A stretch of DNA of 64,000 bases. Source: Deltaproteobacteria bacterium ADurb.Bin207 (GTDB taxonomy: Bacteria; Myxococcota_A; Polyangia; Polyangiales; Polyangiaceae). Shown piece after piece: positions 3,408 through 19,657 of the stretch. A model generated the notes under the pieces. It saw nothing but the letters and a program-made list of their open reading frames with translations, had not been told where the DNA came from and made no database searches. Location of the stretch: contig MWCO01000014.1 in NCBI GenBank assembly GCA_002070115.1, positions 1 through 64,000 on the forward strand, in the 5' to 3' direction. Within the stretch, counting starts at the first letter, position 1. Each line of letters begins with the position of its first letter. The position numbers and the translations under genes were made by a program.

Positions 3408-6002
3408 ATGGAGTCATTGCTCTCGTTGTTCCCAAACCCTGAAGACAACTTCCCGCTCATCGCGGTCATCCTCGGTTTGCCCTTGATGGGTGCCTTGATC
3501 AACGGCATCTTCGGCAAAAGGCTGGGCCCCGAGGGGGTGCGCACGATGGCCTTATCGGCGGTTGGCGGCTCTTTCCTCGCCTCGCTAGCCGCTTTCCTTC
3601 TGCTGTATGCCCGCGTGCAACAGGCCTCTGCCTCCCTTTCCGAAGGCGCGGCCGTCCCTCACGTCAAATTCGTCTGGAATGCATGGCGATGGCTCGCTCT
3701 CGAAACCACCAGCATCGATGTGGTTTTTGCCATCGATAGCCTGAGCGCCACCATGATGCTTGTCGTCACGGGCGTGGGTGGCCTCATCCATCTGTATTCC
3801 ACGGGGTACATGGCGGGAGACCCGAGTTATCACCGCTTTTTCGCCTATCTCAACCTGTTCATCTTCTCGATGTTGGTGCTGATTCTGGGCGATAACCTGC
3901 CGATTCTCTTCGTGGGATGGGAAGGCGTGGGGCTGTGCAGCTACCTTCTCATCGGGTTTTGGTTCGAGGCCGACAAGAACGCTTCGGCGGGTAAAAAAGC
4001 GTTCATTACCAATCGCATCGGTGACTTCGGGCTGTTGTTCGCCATGGCGATGATTCTGCACACGACCGGCAGTCTGTCTTGGGCGGGGATCGAGGCCAGG
4101 GCACCGGAGCTATTCAACGAACTACAAATCTGGCCCATTGGTGTGGCTCCTTCCTGGTTGCCTGCCTTTCTCACGAGCCCTGTCGTCGTCAACTACGCCA
4201 CGCTCATCGGCCTTGCGCTATTTCTTGGTTGCGCGGGCAAGAGTGCGCAAATCCCTCTGTATGTATGGCTTCCCGACGCCATGGCGGGGCCCACGCCCGT
4301 GTCTGCCCTCATCCACGCGGCCACGATGGTTACCGCCGGTGTGTATCTCGTGGCTCGCATGAGTTTCGTATTCGTGCTTTCGCCCACTGCGATGATGGTG
4401 GTCGCTGGGGTTGGTGCGTTTACGGCTCTGTTTGCCGCCACGATCGGGCTCGTGCAGCATGACATCAAAAAGGTGTTGGCTTATTCCACCGTCAGCCAAC
4501 TGGGGTTCATGTTCATGGGCGTGGGGGTGGGCGCCTTCGCCTCGGGCATGTTCCATGTCGTCACCCACGCCTTTTTCAAAGCTTGTTTGTTCCTCGGGGC
4601 CGGTTCGGTCATTCACGCGATGCACGCGCGCATCCACGATACCGATGCCTCTCAGGACATGCGCAACATGGGTGGTTTGCGCAAATACATGCCCAAAACA
4701 TACTGGACATATATGGCAGCGACCGCGGCGATCATAGGCTTGCCGCTTACCGCTGGCTTCTTTTCGAAAGACGACATCCTGTTTCGAGCCTTCGTCAACC
4801 GCATCCAGCCTTCGGGATTGCTCAAAGACCTGGCGATTCGAAACGCGGTGCAAAAAGCTGGCGCTCCGCTATCCGACGAAGCGCGCGAAGCGGTGGTGCA
4901 GGGCCTGCACATCCCCGAATGGTTCTCCACCGCCGTATTCGTCGTGGGTGTCACCGCCGCCATCCTGACCGCGTTTTATATGCTTCGCACCGTTTTCCTT
5001 ACGTTTTTCGGGGACTTCCGTGGATGGCGCATCGTGCCCGGCTGGAAAAATGACGACCACGATCATGACCATCATGCGTCGCACGCGCATGACGAACCCA
5101 TCGACGGTCCGGTGCCGCATGAGTCTCCATGGGCCATGTGGGTTCCTCTGGTGGTGCTTGCTTTCTTCGCTCTCTTCGCAGGCTGGGTCAACGCGGGGCC
5201 GTTCCATCTCACCGCCTTTTCTCATTGGCTCGAGCCTTCCATGCAAAGTGGACTCAAGATGGTGACGACGATCAAACAGGGAGATGAACTCACGCACTTG
5301 GAGCATCTGCTGCTCATCCCCGGTGTGCTGGCCTTCCTGATCGGCTCCGGCGCGGCCTATTGGGTGTATTACGTCAAAAAAGGCGAGCCTGCCCGGCAAG
5401 CCGCGCAATCCGCCGGAGGCTTGTACCGTCTGGTGCTCGATAAATGGCGCATCGACGAATTGTACGAAGCCACCGTGCTTGGTGCTTTCCATTCGTTGGC
5501 GGAGACCGCGGCGTTGTTTGACAAATGGGTCATCGACGGCGTGTTGGCGCGATTGACCACGATCGTGATTCAGTCCTTCGGTTCGCTTTTCCGAGCCTTC
5601 CAGACGGGCCGTGTGCAGATGTATGCCGCGGTGATGGTGGTGGGATTGTTTGCGACGGGCGCGTATTTGTTGACGGCCCATGGCGAGGTTGTGGTGACCA
5701 AGGACGAGGCGGGGGGGATGTATATTGTCGAGGCGGCCCCCGGGCTTGGCTATAAGTATCGCTGGGATCGGGATGGGGATGGGGTTTGGGACAATCCCCA
5801 GTTGGAGCAGGATGAAACCTGGACCTTGCTTCAAAAGGTGCAAGTGCAGGTTCCGCCTGGACAGGAAACCAAGGTGCGAGTCGAAGTGCAGAACGCATTC
5901 AAGATGACGAAAATCCGTGAGATTGTGCTTCGTCGACCGTTACCGGACAAAAGTCGACCCGATCCTGTGGGAATGAACGTGCCGATCGAGGTGATGCCAT
6001 GA
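3408..6002 (+). CDS. nuoL: NADH-quinone oxidoreductase subunit L with C-terminal extension
   Basis: NuoL is the distal antiporter-like proton-pumping subunit. I chose the ATG at 3408 (GGAG about 7 nt upstream) because the frame otherwise runs back into nuoK. The core carries the expected VGWEGVGLCSYLLIGFW glutamate helix and the KSAQIPLYVWLPDAMAGPTP helix-break region. Two features are unusual. A His/Asp-rich loop (NDDHDHDHHASHAHDE, about residues 547-563) lies between membrane segments. After the last hydrophobic segment (about 737-757) there is a soluble tail of roughly 107 residues containing DRDGDGVWD. At 864 residues it is well beyond the usual 610-700. The tail is predicted to be extracytoplasmic if normal topology holds. 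Confidence 0.94.
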   Translation: MESLLSLFPNPEDNFPLIAVILGLPLMGALINGIFGKRLGPEGVRTMALSAVGGSFLASLAAFLLLYARVQQASASLSEGAAVPHVKFVWNAWRWLALETTSIDVVFAIDSLSATMMLVVTGVGGLIHLYSTGYMAGDPSYHRFFAYLNLFIFSMLVLILGDNLPILFVGWEGVGLCSYLLIGFWFEADKNASAGKKAFITNRIGDFGLLFAMAMILHTTGSLSWAGIEARAPELFNELQIWPIGVAPSWLPAFLTSPVVVNYATLIGLALFLGCAGKSAQIPLYVWLPDAMAGPTPVSALIHAATMVTAGVYLVARMSFVFVLSPTAMMVVAGVGAFTALFAATIGLVQHDIKKVLAYSTVSQLGFMFMGVGVGAFASGMFHVVTHAFFKACLFLGAGSVIHAMHARIHDTDASQDMRNMGGLRKYMPKTYWTYMAATAAIIGLPLTAGFFSKDDILFRAFVNRIQPSGLLKDLAIRNAVQKAGAPLSDEAREAVVQGLHIPEWFSTAVFVVGVTAAILTAFYMLRTVFLTFFGDFRGWRIVPGWKNDDHDHDHHASHAHDEPIDGPVPHESPWAMWVPLVVLAFFALFAGWVNAGPFHLTAFSHWLEPSMQSGLKMVTTIKQGDELTHLEHLLLIPGVLAFLIGSGAAYWVYYVKKGEPARQAAQSAGGLYRLVLDKWRIDELYEATVLGAFHSLAETAALFDKWVIDGVLARLTTIVIQSFGSLFRAFQTGRVQMYAAVMVVGLFATGAYLLTAHGEVVVTKDEAGGMYIVEAAPGLGYKYRWDRDGDGVWDNPQLEQDETWTLLQKVQVQVPPGQETKVRVEVQNAFKMTKIREIVLRRPLPDKSRPDPVGMNVPIEVMP

Positions 6003-7873
6003 ACTCCGCGCTCGGTTCCTTGATTGATCTATGGCCGGCGTTGGTGGCGGGTGCTTTCGGAGCGTTCGTTCCAAAACGTCCTTCCTGGTGGGAAAGAGCG
6101 GGTGTCGGCCTGATTGCCGCCCTGCTCGCCATGTTCGTGATGTGGATGTGGCCGGGGGCGGAACAGCAACAGGTCGCTGGCGAGTGGCCTCACTTGCTCA
6201 ACGTGCTCATCGGTTTGCCGCTCATCGGCTCTTTTTTCATTCTCTTCATGCCCCGGCAATCCCCACGCGTTTTGCGCGGCCTGACCCTCGGCATTCTGCT
6301 CGTCGACTTGCTCGCCTCCCTGTGGCTGCTGCAAGTTCCCATGTCCACCGGATGGCACTTCGTATACGTGCATGAGTGGATCCCCGCTTTCGGCATCCGT
6401 TACCACGTCGCGGTCGATGGAATCAGTCTTTGGCTGGTGCTTCTGACCACCTTCATCACGCCCATTGCGGCGTACGTGACCTTCGGTTCGATCAAAACGC
6501 GCATCAAGGACTTGTGTTTTTCGTTTCTATTCTTGCAAGCGGCGATGATCGGCGCCTTTGTCGCGCTGGATCTATTCCTGTTCTACGTGTTCTGGGAGCT
6601 GATGCTGATCCCCATGTACTTGATGATCGGCGTCTGGGGTTCTCAGGACCGTATCAAGGCGGCTCTCAAGTTCTTTTTGTACACGATGGCCGGGTCGGTG
6701 CTGATGCTCGCCGCCATGTTGTACCTCGTATACACCTACTCGCAACTCACCGGTGAGGTGAGTTTCAGCCTGCTTGCGTTGAACAAGGTGCTGTTGCCGC
6801 AACAGGCGCAACTGCTTTGTTTCTGGGCTTTCGCGATCGCTTTCTTCATCAAAGTGCCGATGTTCCCGGTGCATACGTGGTTACCGGATGCTCACGTGCA
6901 GGCGCCCACGGGCGGCTCCATCATTCTGGCGGCCATTCTGTTGAAGATGGGGACCTATGCGTACCTGCGTTTTGCGATGGGATTGTTCCCCTGGGCGGCG
7001 GGCACCCAGGCCGCGAACCTGGCGGGGGTAGCGGTGCTTGGCGGCATCATCTACGGCGCCCTATGTTCATGGAAACAAGACGATTTCAAGCGATTGGTGG
7101 CCTATTCTTCCGTTGCGCACCTCGGCTACGTCATGCTCGGCCTTTTTGCCAACACGCATACGAGCACCCAGGGTGCCTTGTTGCAGATGGTCAACCACGG
7201 TGTGTCCACGGGCGCGCTCTTTTTGCTCGTAGGGGTGATCTACGACCGTCGTCATACCCGAGAAATCTCGGAATTCGGTGGGTTGGCGAAGGTGATGCCC
7301 GTGTACGCGGCGGTGTTTCTCGTCGTGACCATGGCGAGCGTGGGCGTGCCGGGAACCAATGGATTCGTCGGCGAGTTCATGGTCATCATGGGCACCTATA
7401 CCTCGCCTTATCTGGGCAAATTCCATTGGGTGGATGCGGCGGTGGCGGCTTTCGGCGTCATCTTGGCGGCGGTATACATGCTCAGTGTGGTGCAGAAAGT
7501 GTTTTTCGGGCCGTTGAAAAATCCGAAAAACGCTCATCTACCGGATCTCAACGTGCGCGAGGGCATCGCGCTCGTTCCCCTCGTGATCATGATTTTCGTG
7601 ATCGGGCTATTTCCCTCGGTATTTCTGAGTCGATCGAGCCAGTCGGTATCGGATTTCCACACGCGCAATCGGCTTGTGTGGAATGAGTCCCAGGCGGCGA
7701 ATCCCGAGCCGCGCTTGCTGACCAACGACATTTTGGCGGGCAGCCTGTCGGGCTCTTCGCGCGATGAATTGATGAAGCGGCTGGAAGCCTTGGATGGGCA
7801 AGAACCTGGACGAAAACCAGACGACAAGGGTTCCAAGGACGAGACCTTGGCGATCCAGGAGGAAAGCAAGTGA
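5999..7873 (+). CDS. nuoM: NADH-quinone oxidoreductase subunit M
   Basis: NuoM is the second antiporter-like proton-pumping subunit. The 624-residue protein has the key glutamate helix YVFWELMLIPMYLMIGVWG and KVPMFPVHTWLPDAHVQAPT. Compared with the usual start (about WPHLLNVLIGLPL here) it has an N-terminal extension of about 60 residues with two extra hydrophobic segments. The C-terminal tail (about residues 570-624) is polar, ending in a Lys/Asp-rich stretch. The ATG overlaps the nuoL stop, with GAGGTGATG as ribosome binding site. Confidence 0.95.
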   Translation: MNSALGSLIDLWPALVAGAFGAFVPKRPSWWERAGVGLIAALLAMFVMWMWPGAEQQQVAGEWPHLLNVLIGLPLIGSFFILFMPRQSPRVLRGLTLGILLVDLLASLWLLQVPMSTGWHFVYVHEWIPAFGIRYHVAVDGISLWLVLLTTFITPIAAYVTFGSIKTRIKDLCFSFLFLQAAMIGAFVALDLFLFYVFWELMLIPMYLMIGVWGSQDRIKAALKFFLYTMAGSVLMLAAMLYLVYTYSQLTGEVSFSLLALNKVLLPQQAQLLCFWAFAIAFFIKVPMFPVHTWLPDAHVQAPTGGSIILAAILLKMGTYAYLRFAMGLFPWAAGTQAANLAGVAVLGGIIYGALCSWKQDDFKRLVAYSSVAHLGYVMLGLFANTHTSTQGALLQMVNHGVSTGALFLLVGVIYDRRHTREISEFGGLAKVMPVYAAVFLVVTMASVGVPGTNGFVGEFMVIMGTYTSPYLGKFHWVDAAVAAFGVILAAVYMLSVVQKVFFGPLKNPKNAHLPDLNVREGIALVPLVIMIFVIGLFPSVFLSRSSQSVSDFHTRNRLVWNESQAANPEPRLLTNDILAGSLSGSSRDELMKRLEALDGQEPGRKPDDKGSKDETLAIQEESK

Positions 7874-15699: not shown

Positions 15700-16017
15700 G
15701 TCGAGCGCTCCTTGGACTTCGAGGATGAACAGCCGGACCATGGCGGCGATGGGCAGCGCAGGTCAACGGCCTTGGCGTGAGAATTGCTCAAAGACCAAGG
15801 AAAAGAAAGCGTTGTTCGACGGCTTTGGGGGGCCCGGGTCACCGATAGAGGCTCGTGGAGACTTTATTTTCGATGGTCGTTCCCCCTTGTCTGGCGTTGG
15901 GTTACGACAGCTCTTCTGGCATGATGCGCGCCGCTTCGGCCGCGGTGGCTTGCACGGACCGTGGGAAGCGGATTTTCAAGCCGTGGGACCCACCCATATC
16001 CCGCATAGGAGGCTGCC
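15700..16017. other. Divergent intergenic region between hutU and the transporter operon
   Basis: No gene is supported. Divergent promoters for hutU and the 16018 gene are expected, but I see no convincing box. AGGAGG at the right end is the ribosome binding site of the TTG-started transporter gene. Confidence 0.4.
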
Positions 16018-17766
16018 TTGAGCACCGACGAGCAGGACAACAAACCGGATCAGGACAGCGAAGAGACCAAACCCAATCCTTTTCAAGAGATCGTACAGCC
16101 TTTCATCGATCTCGTACACGCGCCTCGCGCGCTGTGGGGCATCAATGCGGCCTATTTTCTCGAGGGGATGGTGTACTTCGGGATGCTCATGTACCTGGCC
16201 ATGTACTTCAACGAGTACGTGGGATTGAGCGACTCGATGGCGGGCATCATGGTGGGGGTGCTCACCAGTGGCATTACGTTTTCGATGTTTTTGTTCGGCG
16301 GGCTTGCGGATCGATGGGGGGTTCGCATCGCTCTCATCGCCGCGTTTTTCCTCATGATTGGTGGACGTATCGCCCTTTCCGGGGCGCCGTCCGTGGGCAT
16401 GGGAAGCACCGGATTGGGCTCCCCCGTACACATCATCGCCATGGTGGGCATCCTGCTCATCGTGCTGGGCTATGGCATGTATCAGCCCGCGGCTTATGCC
16501 GGCGTGCGCCAATTCACCACGCCCAAAACTGCCGCCATGGGCTTTGCCATGCTCTATGCCCTCATGAACCTCGGCGGTTGGGTGCCCACCTTCTTTTCGC
16601 CTATCCGAAAAGCATTTGGCATCAGTGGCGCCTTCTGGGTATTCACCGCCGCTTCCGTCGTGGCGCTGCTGCTTACCATCGTGTTGCTTACCAAAAAGGT
16701 AGTGGACCGAACGACCGCGGAGGCGAAAGCCGAGAAAGAAGCGCAGAAGTCCGACGAAAAAAAGGAGCAAGAGGCGGAGAAAAAAGAGAAAGAAAACGCT
16801 GCTTTAGCTGAAGCCCGGGCCCGTGGCTTCTTCGCCATGGCCTGGCATTGGCTCCGTCATCATCCCTTGGCAGACCCGAAGTTCACCTTCTTCATCTTCG
16901 CGCTCATTCCTGTGCAAACCCTCTTCGCCCACAACTGGCTCACCTTGCCGTTGTACGTCGAGCGAGCGTTTGCTCCGCCCGTGGGAGTCGAAGCTTGTGA
17001 CTCGCTTGCTTCGTCGTCCGAGGCTTTGCCTGCGCTTGAAGGCGCGCGCACCGTAGAAGCGCTCAAAGATGTTGTCTTGCGATTTGAAGGCTCCAAGCAG
17101 GCCTGTGAAGCCAAAAAGCAAATTCGTTCGATGGCTGCCGTCAAGCTTGTGGAAGGAGACAAAAAAGCAGCGGAACAAGCGGAAGAAGCCAAGCGCACCA
17201 TTCGAACTCTGGACTTTCAAGCGGCTGCCAAAGAATCCTCGGCCAAGGGAAATTGGTCGGAAACAGCGCGCTTGTGGCTCGGGGAAAATTTCGAAGTGGC
17301 GGTCAACTTCAATCCGCTGCTCATCTTCATTCTCGTACCCATCGTCACCGCGCTGACCCAACGGCGAAAGGTATACAACATGATGATCGTGGGAACGTTC
17401 GTGATGGCGGGTCCCACGTTTTTGCTCGTGCTCGGTCCCACTTTCTGGACGTTGCTCGGCTATCTGGTGATCATGACGATCGGTGAGGCGATGTGGCAGC
17501 CTCGATTTTTGCAATACGCCGCGGAGATTGCGCCGGAGGGCCGCACCGCTGCGTATATGGGCGTGGCTCAATTTCCATGGTTCCTCACCAAAATGATCGT
17601 GCCCCTGTACTCAGGGTATTTCTTGTCCAAGTACGTTCCCGATAGTGGTCCGGTGCAAAGCGAGACGATGTGGCTCATCTACGGAATCATCGCCGTCAGC
17701 TCCACCGTATTTCTCGTATTGGCCAAGGGATGGATCGGAAAAGACTTCAAAACTCAGGCAGAATGA
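16018..17766 (+). CDS. MFS/POT-like transporter with inserted extracytoplasmic domain
   Basis: A major-facilitator-type inner membrane transporter, 582 residues. The TTG start follows AGGAGG by 6 nt. Residues about 40-230 form the first six helices. A highly charged Lys/Glu cytoplasmic loop follows (about 230-275), then TM7 (KFTFFIFALIPVQTLFAHNW). Between TM7 and TM8 sits an insert of about 115 residues, helical and charged, with two Cys (EACDSL and KQACEAK). By MFS topology this lies outside the membrane. The late helices resemble POT peptide transporters (IGEAMWQPRFLQYAAEIAPEGRTAAYMG), but the proton-coupling ExxER motif of POTs is not kept in TM1 (FLEGMVYFG). The substrate is unknown. It overlaps the next gene by 4 nt. 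Confidence 0.8.
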   Translation: MSTDEQDNKPDQDSEETKPNPFQEIVQPFIDLVHAPRALWGINAAYFLEGMVYFGMLMYLAMYFNEYVGLSDSMAGIMVGVLTSGITFSMFLFGGLADRWGVRIALIAAFFLMIGGRIALSGAPSVGMGSTGLGSPVHIIAMVGILLIVLGYGMYQPAAYAGVRQFTTPKTAAMGFAMLYALMNLGGWVPTFFSPIRKAFGISGAFWVFTAASVVALLLTIVLLTKKVVDRTTAEAKAEKEAQKSDEKKEQEAEKKEKENAALAEARARGFFAMAWHWLRHHPLADPKFTFFIFALIPVQTLFAHNWLTLPLYVERAFAPPVGVEACDSLASSSEALPALEGARTVEALKDVVLRFEGSKQACEAKKQIRSMAAVKLVEGDKKAAEQAEEAKRTIRTLDFQAAAKESSAKGNWSETARLWLGENFEVAVNFNPLLIFILVPIVTALTQRRKVYNMMIVGTFVMAGPTFLLVLGPTFWTLLGYLVIMTIGEAMWQPRFLQYAAEIAPEGRTAAYMGVAQFPWFLTKMIVPLYSGYFLSKYVPDSGPVQSETMWLIYGIIAVSSTVFLVLAKGWIGKDFKTQAE

Positions 17767-18332
17767 TGTCGCCACGCATGAAACGTGTCTCGTACTTTTC
17801 GTGGATCGTGAGTGCATCGTTGGCCGTGGCCTGTGGTCCTTCCGCGTCGACGACATCGCCAGCCACGCCTTCGACTCCCACCGCCACCGAGGAGCAACCG
17901 CCGACGGTGGTGTACAGCAAGTTCACGGACCCGCTTTTTCTCGCCTTGGGCGAAGAGAAAAACGTGTTTGGAAGAAGAACCCTCGCGCGTCTTTGGGTGG
18001 TGGCGTCGAATTTCGATCCTCCTGGGCCCGCGCAACAAGCGCGTCTGCAAGAGGCCCAGCGCGCGGTGGATGAGGCCGAACATGCGGTCGGTGCCCAGAC
18101 GGATGTATGTGAAGCGGGCGTGAGCGTAGCGGTGGTTCGTGCGATCGAAACCAAAAAACAGGTAGAGCAGCGGTATTTATCGACGGTGGAGCAAGGGGGG
18201 GAAGCTTGTCCCCAGGCCCGTAGCCTCGATGCGCAAGTCCATTTTTTGCGCGACGAAATCGAGGCATTGCAAGAACTTGCGCAACCCTGCCCGCCGCAGA
18301 TGTTCGACGATCCGCCTGAAGAATCCAGATGA
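17763..18332 (+). CDS. Putative lipoprotein between two transporter genes
   Basis: A 189-residue protein with an N-terminal signal and lipobox LAVAC (Cys24 from the first ATG; the ATG at 17778 is an alternative start). A Ser/Thr/Pro-rich spacer follows. The distal half is predicted helical or coiled coil (LQEAQRAVDEAEHAVGAQ) with Cys at DVCEAG, GEACPQ and AQPCPP. Both ends overlap neighbouring transporter genes as ATGA, so its translation is coupled to both. This suggests it works with them. The family is not recognised. Confidence 0.75.
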   Translation: MMSPRMKRVSYFSWIVSASLAVACGPSASTTSPATPSTPTATEEQPPTVVYSKFTDPLFLALGEEKNVFGRRTLARLWVVASNFDPPGPAQQARLQEAQRAVDEAEHAVGAQTDVCEAGVSVAVVRAIETKKQVEQRYLSTVEQGGEACPQARSLDAQVHFLRDEIEALQELAQPCPPQMFDDPPEESR

Positions 18333-19657
18333 ACGACAAGGCAACGAGTTCCTCGAAGGAGTCGGGATTCCGCTCCTTTCCCCGTGTGTTTTGGGTCGTG
18401 GTGTTGATGGAGTTTTTCGAACGAGGCTCCTACTACGGCCTGATGTCCGTGCTCAGCGTGTATATGGTGGACCAGGTGGCCGACGGTGGTCTCGGGTTTT
18501 CCAAAGGTGCCGCGGGCGCGATCAACAGCACCATCCGTCCCTTGTTGTACTTTCTGCCGATCGTGGCCGGCGCCGTCGCCGATCGCTTCGGTTATCGTCG
18601 CAGCTTGCTCGTGGCTTTCTGCTTGTTGTCCACGGGATACTTCCTGGCCGGTCAGATGACGAGTTACGTGGCGGTCTTCCTTTCGTTGATCGTCATGGCC
18701 ACGGGCGCGGGGATTTTCAAACCCATCATTTCCGGCACGATCGCCCGGTCCACGACGGAGAGCAATTCCGGCCTTGGTTTCGGCATTTTTTATTGGACCA
18801 TCAACCTCGGCGCCTTTCTTTTTCCCCTCGTGCTCGTCAACTACCTGCGCACCCATGCCTATCCGTGGTCCGCCATCTTCACCGCCTCGGCTCTGGGCAC
18901 GGGTATCATGCTGATTCCCACGGTTTTTCTTTATCGGGAACCGCCCAAACCCGAAAGTACCAAAACGCTCGCGCAAGTGCTCGGCGGCGCTGTCCTGGTC
19001 CTGAAAGACTGGCGCTTCGTGACCATGATCGCGATCTATTCGGGCTTCTGGGTCCTTTACTTCCAGATGTTCGATACCGTCCTTTGGTATCTCAAGGCCC
19101 ATGTCGATATGTCCCCGTTCGACGCCACCATCAATGGCGTTCTTCAGGCTCTCGGTTTCGATGGGAAATTCAAGTTCGATTCCGAGCATGTGACGGTCAT
19201 CAACGCGGGTACCATCATTGTCTTGCAACTCATCATCTCGAGCATCGTCAAAAACTGGCGGGCTCTCCCCACGATGATCGGCGGTATTGCCATCGGCACG
19301 GCGGGCTTCATTCTGCTGGCGATTTCCACCAGCCCGTGGATCTTCATGGCCGGCATCATCGTGTTTTCGATTGGCGAGATGACCGCGCATCCCAAGTTCA
19401 TCTCCTACGTGGGGCTCATCGCCCCCGAAGACAAAAAAGCGACCTATATGGGCTACTCCTTCTTGTACGGCGTCATCGGATCGAGCGTGGGTGGTTATTT
19501 CGGCGCGAAGCTTTATGAACACTTCGTGGATGGATGCCATCAACCTCGCACCCTATGGCTGATCTTCGTGGGACTGGGCATCGCCACGATCCTTGGACTC
19601 GTGGGTTATGATCGCTTCATCGCCTTGCGCCCAGCGTCGCCGGCGCGGTCGCCATAG
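18329..19657 (+). CDS. POT-family (proton-dependent) peptide transporter
   Basis: A 442-residue transporter of the POT/PTR2 branch of the MFS, normally importing di- and tripeptides with protons. The TM1 signature is intact: EFFERGSYYGLMSVLSVYM contains ExxER. PTR2-like segments follow (GAVADRFGYRRSLLVAFC, ATGAGIFKPIISGTIARS, FYWTINLGAFLFP) and a late IGEMTAHPKFISYVGLIAP. The loop after TM7 is about 35 residues. It is distantly related to the transporter two genes upstream. Peptide specificity is inferred from family only. Confidence 0.88.
   Translation: MNDKATSSSKESGFRSFPRVFWVVVLMEFFERGSYYGLMSVLSVYMVDQVADGGLGFSKGAAGAINSTIRPLLYFLPIVAGAVADRFGYRRSLLVAFCLLSTGYFLAGQMTSYVAVFLSLIVMATGAGIFKPIISGTIARSTTESNSGLGFGIFYWTINLGAFLFPLVLVNYLRTHAYPWSAIFTASALGTGIMLIPTVFLYREPPKPESTKTLAQVLGGAVLVLKDWRFVTMIAIYSGFWVLYFQMFDTVLWYLKAHVDMSPFDATINGVLQALGFDGKFKFDSEHVTVINAGTIIVLQLIISSIVKNWRALPTMIGGIAIGTAGFILLAISTSPWIFMAGIIVFSIGEMTAHPKFISYVGLIAPEDKKATYMGYSFLYGVIGSSVGGYFGAKLYEHFVDGCHQPRTLWLIFVGLGIATILGLVGYDRFIALRPASPARSP

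Follow-up and report, generated by a model that had tools for sequence, protein, structure and literature searches.

The window, by which we mean the whole 64,000-nucleotide stretch of DNA analysed here, contains a block of three forward-strand genes (16018-19657) in which two MFS transporter genes, T1 and T2, flank a lipoprotein gene and all three are joined by two ATGA overlaps. The reading that we favour, and to which we give about an even chance of being correct, is a translationally coupled T1–lipoprotein–T2 operon with a proton-coupled T2, a divergent T1, a lipoprotein that is accessory to T1 and an optional insert in T1, the two proteins acting as separate transporters. The gene order, overlaps and motifs are observed, as are the folds at the level of models. 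Since the block is real and is kept in one related genus, and its parts are mostly found apart elsewhere, we regard it as an unusual transporter operon and not as a proven new machine. Its features are:

16007-16012, forward strand: ribosome-binding site AGGAGG, 5 nt ahead of the TTG start of T1 (from the sequence).
16018-17766, forward strand: T1, divergent POT-like MFS transporter of 582 residues with a TTG start (from the ORF, Pfam, Foldseek and sequence matches).
16153-16167, forward strand: T1 TM1 motif Y46-F-L-E49-G50, at the ExxER position (from alignment).
16966-17271, forward strand: helical T1 insert (residues 317-418) lying between TM7 and TM8, with Cys327 and Cys363 (from alignment of relatives and the model).
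17763-18332, forward strand: helical lipoprotein of 189 residues with lipobox Cys24, its gene in ATGA overlap with T1 (from the sequence and the model).
18329-19657, forward strand: T2, POT-like MFS transporter of 442 residues, its gene in ATGA overlap with the lipoprotein gene (from Pfam, TIGR00924 and structure matches).
18410-18424, forward strand: T2 TM1 motif E28-F-F-E31-R32, the ExxER motif (from alignment).

Both overlaps claimed in the original prediction, at the T1/lipoprotein and lipoprotein/T2 junctions, were confirmed from the ORF coordinates. The same prediction held that T2 keeps the ExxER proton-coupling motif, and this too was borne out. Alignment with GkPOT (4ikv) over the N-terminal half (residues 7-171) showed the signature E28-F-F-E31-R32-G-S-Y-Y on TM1, which departs from ExxERFxYY in that Gly replaces Phe after ER, together with K131 in TM4 and the TM10 Glu. 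The set E, E, R, Y, Y, K and E was present in 39/39 rows of the T2 alignment. T2 matched POT structures down to 8e-21 and Pfam MFS_1 at 109 bits, and it narrowly passed the Pfam PTR2 gathering cut-off (29.7 versus 27.0 bits) with a partial match to residues 111-196. Its score for the NCBIfam oligopeptide:H+ symporter family TIGR00924 was below cut-off (95.1 versus 130.2 bits). Because the PTR2 score is marginal and the TIGR00924 cut-off was missed, the label 'peptide importer' is not secure for T2. Judged by its sequence, T2 may be a POT-type proton-coupled importer of small peptides or peptide-like substrates, with substrate, direction and coupling all predicted on that basis.

T1 matched Pfam MFS_1 at 98.2 bits; MFS_1 and OATP were the only Pfam families above cut-off, and PTR2 fell below its gathering threshold. 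A sequence search matched SLC15A1/A2 at about 1e-6. The AlphaFold model of T1 (pLDDT 83, pTM 0.80) found its best Foldseek matches among SLC15/POT structures (PepT2, SLC15A4 and GkPOT), and it also matched generic MFS folds such as LmrP, as well as SV2A. T1 nevertheless fails the POT signature, having neither ExxER on TM1 nor the TM4 Lys: the window protein has Y46-x-x-E49-G50 on TM1 and Q156 at the Lys position. Among 40 subfamily rows, one of them gapped at the TM1 positions, the consensus at the key POT positions was Y/E/G/Q/E. None of the 40 had Glu at the first acidic position, Arg at the Arg position or Lys in TM4, the second acidic position held Glu in 28 and Asp in 11, and the TM10 Glu was found in every row. 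The absence of ExxER from T1 had thus been predicted correctly; the motif is missing throughout the subfamily, which makes this an old trait unconnected with the insert. Loss of ExxER is tolerated in the atypical POT DtpC, which has QxxEY (PMC9309889). T1 would represent a separate, widespread POT-like subfamily that no longer has the first Glu and the Arg of ExxER, nor the TM4 Lys, but has retained the acidic residue at the second position and the Glu of TM10. Its substrate is probably related to that of T2, with proton coupling altered or absent.

The original prediction also described a helical insert of about 115 residues between TM7 and TM8 of T1, with paired Cys. The insert is present and was modelled as helical (pLDDT about 70-82 in most blocks), but measured against insert-free relatives it spans 102 residues. 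It was found in 2 of 317 class genomes, both times within T1, and no free-standing copy of the domain turned up in a search of these genomes. The sole other copy, in genome G146, lies at the same position, is 42-44% identical to that of the window and retains both C327 and C363. The insert had been expected in close relatives; it is missing from the closest, being absent from T1 of G022, G023, G015 and most other T1 relatives. Branch supports around the window, G022 and G146 in the T1 tree were mostly weak (0.34-0.69, one 0.90), so that the insert may have been acquired either once or twice. The idea that the insert is a copy of part of the lipoprotein was ruled out, as the two have no similarity (E 2.2). 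More broadly, the T1 branch acquires unrelated inserts at several loops, probably located in the periplasm, and their repeated appearance at different loops would offer a way to ask what outer-face modules do in MFS transport.

The lipoprotein was likewise claimed to be helical with paired Cys, which agrees with our results. AlphaFold models it as a bundle of helices, with a pLDDT of about 90 over most of residues 55 to 170, and C116 and C176, besides the lipobox Cys, are invariant in 3/3 homologues, whereas C149 is not. By eye, the protein begins with a signal peptide whose lipobox reads LAVAC in the window, with Ala at -3, and LAAC and VAGC in two homologues. We take the window lipobox to be slightly off consensus at -3 and the other two to be canonical. 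No family in Pfam or the other family searches scored above cut-off, and at E <= 0.001 the model matched no fold in the PDB. Homologues were identified in 3/317 class genomes at 288-330 bits, and in each the gene adjoins T1; a further 17 matches were weak (20.6-25.9 bits) and covered the N-terminal part only. A profile search for diverged lipoproteins beside other T1 genes found none in 73 loci beyond G022 and G015, nor was a lipoprotein recognised when the ORF after other T1 genes was read. The T1–lipoprotein association is therefore observed for 3/3 homologues. We infer that the lipoprotein, anchored in the envelope, is a helical accessory in physical contact with T1, and that it probably serves to stabilise T1 or to hand over substrate at the outer face. 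On that face the insert would be an optional helical cap which the lipoprotein does not require. The original prediction implied that the insert and the lipoprotein work together, and their distribution speaks against this: four genomes have one or the other and only the window has both, with G022 and G015 carrying the lipoprotein without the insert and G146 the insert without the lipoprotein.

The original prediction named a lack of linkage elsewhere, or absence of the insert from close relatives, as findings that would refute it, and our results partly go that way. Linkage of the three genes outside the window proved partial. The trio recurs with both ATGA overlaps in one related genus (locus L059 of G022: T1 4014-5435, lipoprotein 5432-6004, T2 6001-7329), and a second related genus (G015) has T1 and the lipoprotein, separated by 28 bp, without an adjoining T2. 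Across the 317 class genomes the trio thus occurs in two genera only, and T1 with the lipoprotein in three only. Elsewhere T1 and T2 are mostly unlinked. They share a contig in 2/17 class genomes carrying both and lie on separate contigs in 15/17, counts that come from draft genomes in which separate contigs could still be linked at a distance. A survey of neighbouring genes revealed none that constantly accompanies T1 or T2, and none that hints at the substrate. An Lgt gene adjoins T1 in G179 and lies near T2 in 5/80 loci; we considered it as a substrate clue and set it aside, as the cases are too few.

These distributions bear on what the block might be. One alternative, which we consider unlikely, is that transporter genes independent of each other came together by chance with an orphan lipoprotein, in a lineage of dense operons with ordinary ATGA couplings. 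Such overlaps are common in bacteria, and the frequent separation of T1 and T2 fits this explanation. An unrelated control gene, which had no match in G023, placed G015 and G022 among the nearest relatives of the window, so that descent from a near common ancestor could account for some of the linkage. However, the block and its overlaps survive in G022 and the surrounding genes do not, no other gene of the window having a counterpart in L115/L059, L116 or L117. The block is also intact despite divergence to about 65% identity for T1 and T2 and about 31-33% for the lipoprotein, and no lipoprotein was found away from T1. A heteromeric uptake complex, with a proton-driven T2, T1 as a paralogue with a regulatory or substrate-passing role, and the lipoprotein (with the insert in the window) bridging the outer face, seems very improbable to us. 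The two conserved overlaps in G022 favour it, as does the presence of a close T1 in 17/18 class genomes with a close T2 (Fisher p about 7e-18, uncorrected for kinship). Against it stand the separate contigs, the 17/34 close-T1 genomes that have no close T2, and the lack of T1 in 26/43 T2 genomes searched beyond the class. Moreover, an unlinked third POT-like paralogue (G000:C9) co-occurs with T1 equally well (16/18), so the T1–T2 co-occurrence is not specific to the pair, and we dropped it as proof of one.

Export or lipid hand-over of the LprG-Rv1410 type, in which a lipidic or amphipathic substrate would be extruded by T1 and taken over by the lipoprotein, is improbable. The gene kinds in the operon are the same, MFS plus lipoprotein, and the enlarged outer face of T1 recalls the TM11-TM12 extensions of Rv1410 (PMC10576003), but T1 is POT-like in fold and sequence, the lipoprotein model did not have LprG among the 50 fold matches listed, and no lipid gene constantly adjoins. 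We hold it very improbable that T1 forms the centre of a modular family of uncoupled peptide-type MFS transporters whose periplasmic module comes either in cis, at one of several loops (TM3-4, the TM6-7 linker through additional TM pairs, or TM7-8), or in trans (the lipoprotein), and that T1 is here locked with the proton-coupled T2 into a heteromeric uptake system. We continue to favour the coupled operon, in which T1 and T2 would most likely work as separate transporters handling related substrates.

Comparison with known systems places the block among several partial precedents. T2 resembles the POT/PTR2 family (SLC15; GkPOT, PepTSt, DtpA-D) in its ExxER...YY, TM4 Lys and TM10 Glu, and the T1 model is closest to structures of this family; unlike established members, T2 sits near the PTR2 lower limit and under the curated peptide-symporter cut-off, and T1 is without the first Glu, the Arg and the TM4 Lys. 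Among the papers listed by literature searches on paired or lipoprotein-assisted POT systems, none dealt with a T1–lipoprotein–T2 cassette. Even so, the claim that a heteromeric complex with an accessory lipoprotein would be new for this superfamily was too strong, because accessory partners have already been described for MFS transporters. In the LprG-Rv1410 (P55) system of mycobacteria, one operon encodes the MFS transporter and an envelope lipoprotein, and the transporter has additional periplasmic structure (PMC10576003); it differs in being a single transporter for triacylglyceride export with its extension at TM11-TM12. The MFS and lipoprotein genes lie together in both systems, with an ATGA overlap in the window and G022 and a gap in G015, whereas the bundle modelled for the window lipoprotein did not match an LprG-like fold. 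SV2A has an additional non-cytosolic domain between TM7 and TM8 (PMC11026379), the position of the T1 insert, but that domain is a beta-helix and the insert of about 102 residues is helical. In MFSD1-GLMP, a lysosomal MFS dipeptide uniporter is protected by its accessory subunit (PMC11252000), and the likeness lies in a peptide-specific MFS protein with such a subunit; unlike the block, the system is eukaryotic, its accessory is not a lipoprotein and it has a single transporter. If the lipoprotein is an obligate partner of T1, the block would provide a bacterial example of a peptide-type MFS transporter that has an envelope subunit of its own, and a tractable counterpart of MFSD1-GLMP.

The three genes predicted to lie in series, with both junctions formed by ATGA overlaps, were found on the forward strand at 16018-19657.

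16018-17766, + strand: T1, the first transporter (divergent POT-like MFS); ATGA overlap with the lipoprotein gene
17763-18332, + strand: lipoprotein gene; ATGA overlaps with T1 and T2
18329-19657, + strand: T2, the second transporter (POT-like MFS); ATGA overlap with the lipoprotein gene
T1 residues 317-418: insert, between TM7 (297-318) and TM8 (425-447) of the T1 model

A putative urocanate hydratase gene lies upstream of this trio, on the opposite strand, and a metallo-beta-lactamase-fold gene (Pfam) lies downstream. T1 and T2 are distant homologues: the T2 set is ~19-24% identical to T1 in the alignment, and T2 as query matches T1 at E 9e-10.

T2 matches the Pfam families MFS_1 and, barely over its cut-off, PTR2. 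The ExxER motif claimed for T2 is present: all 39 of 39 rows of the T2 alignment have EFFERGSYYG in TM1, Lys in TM4 and Glu in TM10, and alignment with GkPOT, a known POT transporter, matches the TM1 motif and the TM4 Lys directly. T2 is best read as a POT-like H+ symporter. The T1 model (pTM 0.80) has SLC15/POT structures as its closest folds, and the nearest T1 relatives are 57-67% identical across the core. ExxER is absent from T1, as predicted, but the T1 subfamily as such has Y/E/G at its positions (alignment of 40 rows), with a Gln where POT transporters have their TM4 Lys, so the 'loss' is a property of the subfamily. The TM10 Glu is invariant (40/40). Published work on POT transporters describes this Glu as essential and gives E1 and R of ExxER a role both in coupling and in the binding of peptides (PMC4331665, PMC9309889); DtpC, a known POT transporter, carries QxxEY instead (PMC9309889). 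Our best reading of T1 is a divergent paralogue with changed coupling, helped by the lipoprotein on the outer face.

The insert was missing from 43 of 44 T1 relatives aligned to one insert-free relative, itself included in the 44. The exception, in genome G146, is of the same size and at the same place, is 42-44% identical to the window's insert and keeps both Cys; a profile of the two found no further match in the 317 class genomes. We read the insert as optional. Other inserts occur in this transporter branch. T1 of G015 (L117 6326-8665) and of G082 (L213 676-2928) share an insert of > 200 residues in the TM3-TM4 loop, unrelated to the window's, with two Cys and 40% mutual identity, and have an additional hydrophobic pair in the TM6-TM7 linker. 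Five T1 relatives (G092, G141, G087, G097 and G090) carry TM6-TM7 linker inserts of some 300 residues, with hydrophobic stretches visible on the flanks in G097 and G141. By locus, linker inserts of this length lie in T1 relatives L219, L220, L221, L222 and L223 and in many T2 relatives among L062-L084, with hydrophobic flanks in those inspected; T2 relatives with long linker inserts include ones from Aminicenantes and Acidobacteriota. Of the inserts tested, three of linker type among them, none matched Pfam above cut-off. From standard MFS topology and, for linker inserts, the hydrophobic flanks, we infer that the inserts lie outside the cytoplasm.

Lipoprotein homologues (288-330 bits) were found in 3 of the 317 genomes, always immediately 3' of T1: the window's, G022 (31% identity to the window's protein) and G015 (47%). 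The other 17 listed hits, left out of this count, scored 20.6-25.9 bits and fell on the Pro/Ala-rich N-terminal part. The lipoprotein model is a helical bundle, with no PDB fold match at E <= 0.001. The original prediction gave insert and lipoprotein a joint role; this is contradicted because the two occur in separate genomes, coinciding in one of four, the window's. Separately, a gene for Lgt (prolipoprotein diacylglyceryl transferase) immediately follows T1 in G179 (L206 3525-4493) and lies upstream of T2, within a few kb, in five loci (L042, L045, L046, L049 and L058).

The predicted T1-T2 heteromer stays a hypothesis. The trio recurs in G022 (locus L059), with both ATGA overlaps kept, and G015 has T1 and the lipoprotein gene, separated by 28 bp. 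However, T1 and T2 lie on separate contigs in 15 of the 17 class genomes with both. A T1-subfamily gene adjoins T2 in 1 of 80 loci (L059; best 80 of 99 relatives from the genome collection, mostly Bacteroidota, Ignavibacteria, Acidobacteriota, Aminicenantes and Myxococcota/Deltaproteobacteria, with flanks of at most 6 kb, shorter at contig ends). Two Ignavibacteria-type genomes hold a same-strand tandem pair of T2-like transporters (L033 4138-7305; L060 4141-7305). G023 has T1 alone, followed by a putative methyltransferase gene. No counterparts of other window genes were found in the G022, G023 and G015 stretches. An unrelated window gene, used as a control, had its best family matches in G015, G022, G266 and G246 and no match in G023; G015 and G022 are therefore near relatives of the window, and the linkage evidence, with the trio seen in two genera and T1 plus lipoprotein in three, covers a modest distance.

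T1 was matched at E <= 1e-60 in 46/317 class genomes, 34 of which form the close-T1 set once 12 with 37-44% identity are removed. T2 at >= 51% identity occurs in 18 class genomes (10 matches of 32-37% excluded), 17 of which also hold close T1; T1 is present in 17 of 43 genomes reached via T2 loci (44 minus L050). A third, unlinked POT-like paralogue (G000:C9:59065-60261 in the window's genome; L002 1468-2862), with the ExxER-like motif ELLERGAYY, co-occurs with close T1 in 16/18 class genomes. T1-T2 co-occurrence therefore does not single out the pair, and marks a genome group or transporter guild.

The view that such an arrangement would be new for the superfamily was too strong, because comparable systems are already known. 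LprG-Rv1410 (PMC10576003) and MFSD1-GLMP (PMC11252000) are described as MFS proteins with partners, and SV2A as having a domain between TM7 and TM8 (PMC11026379), like T1.
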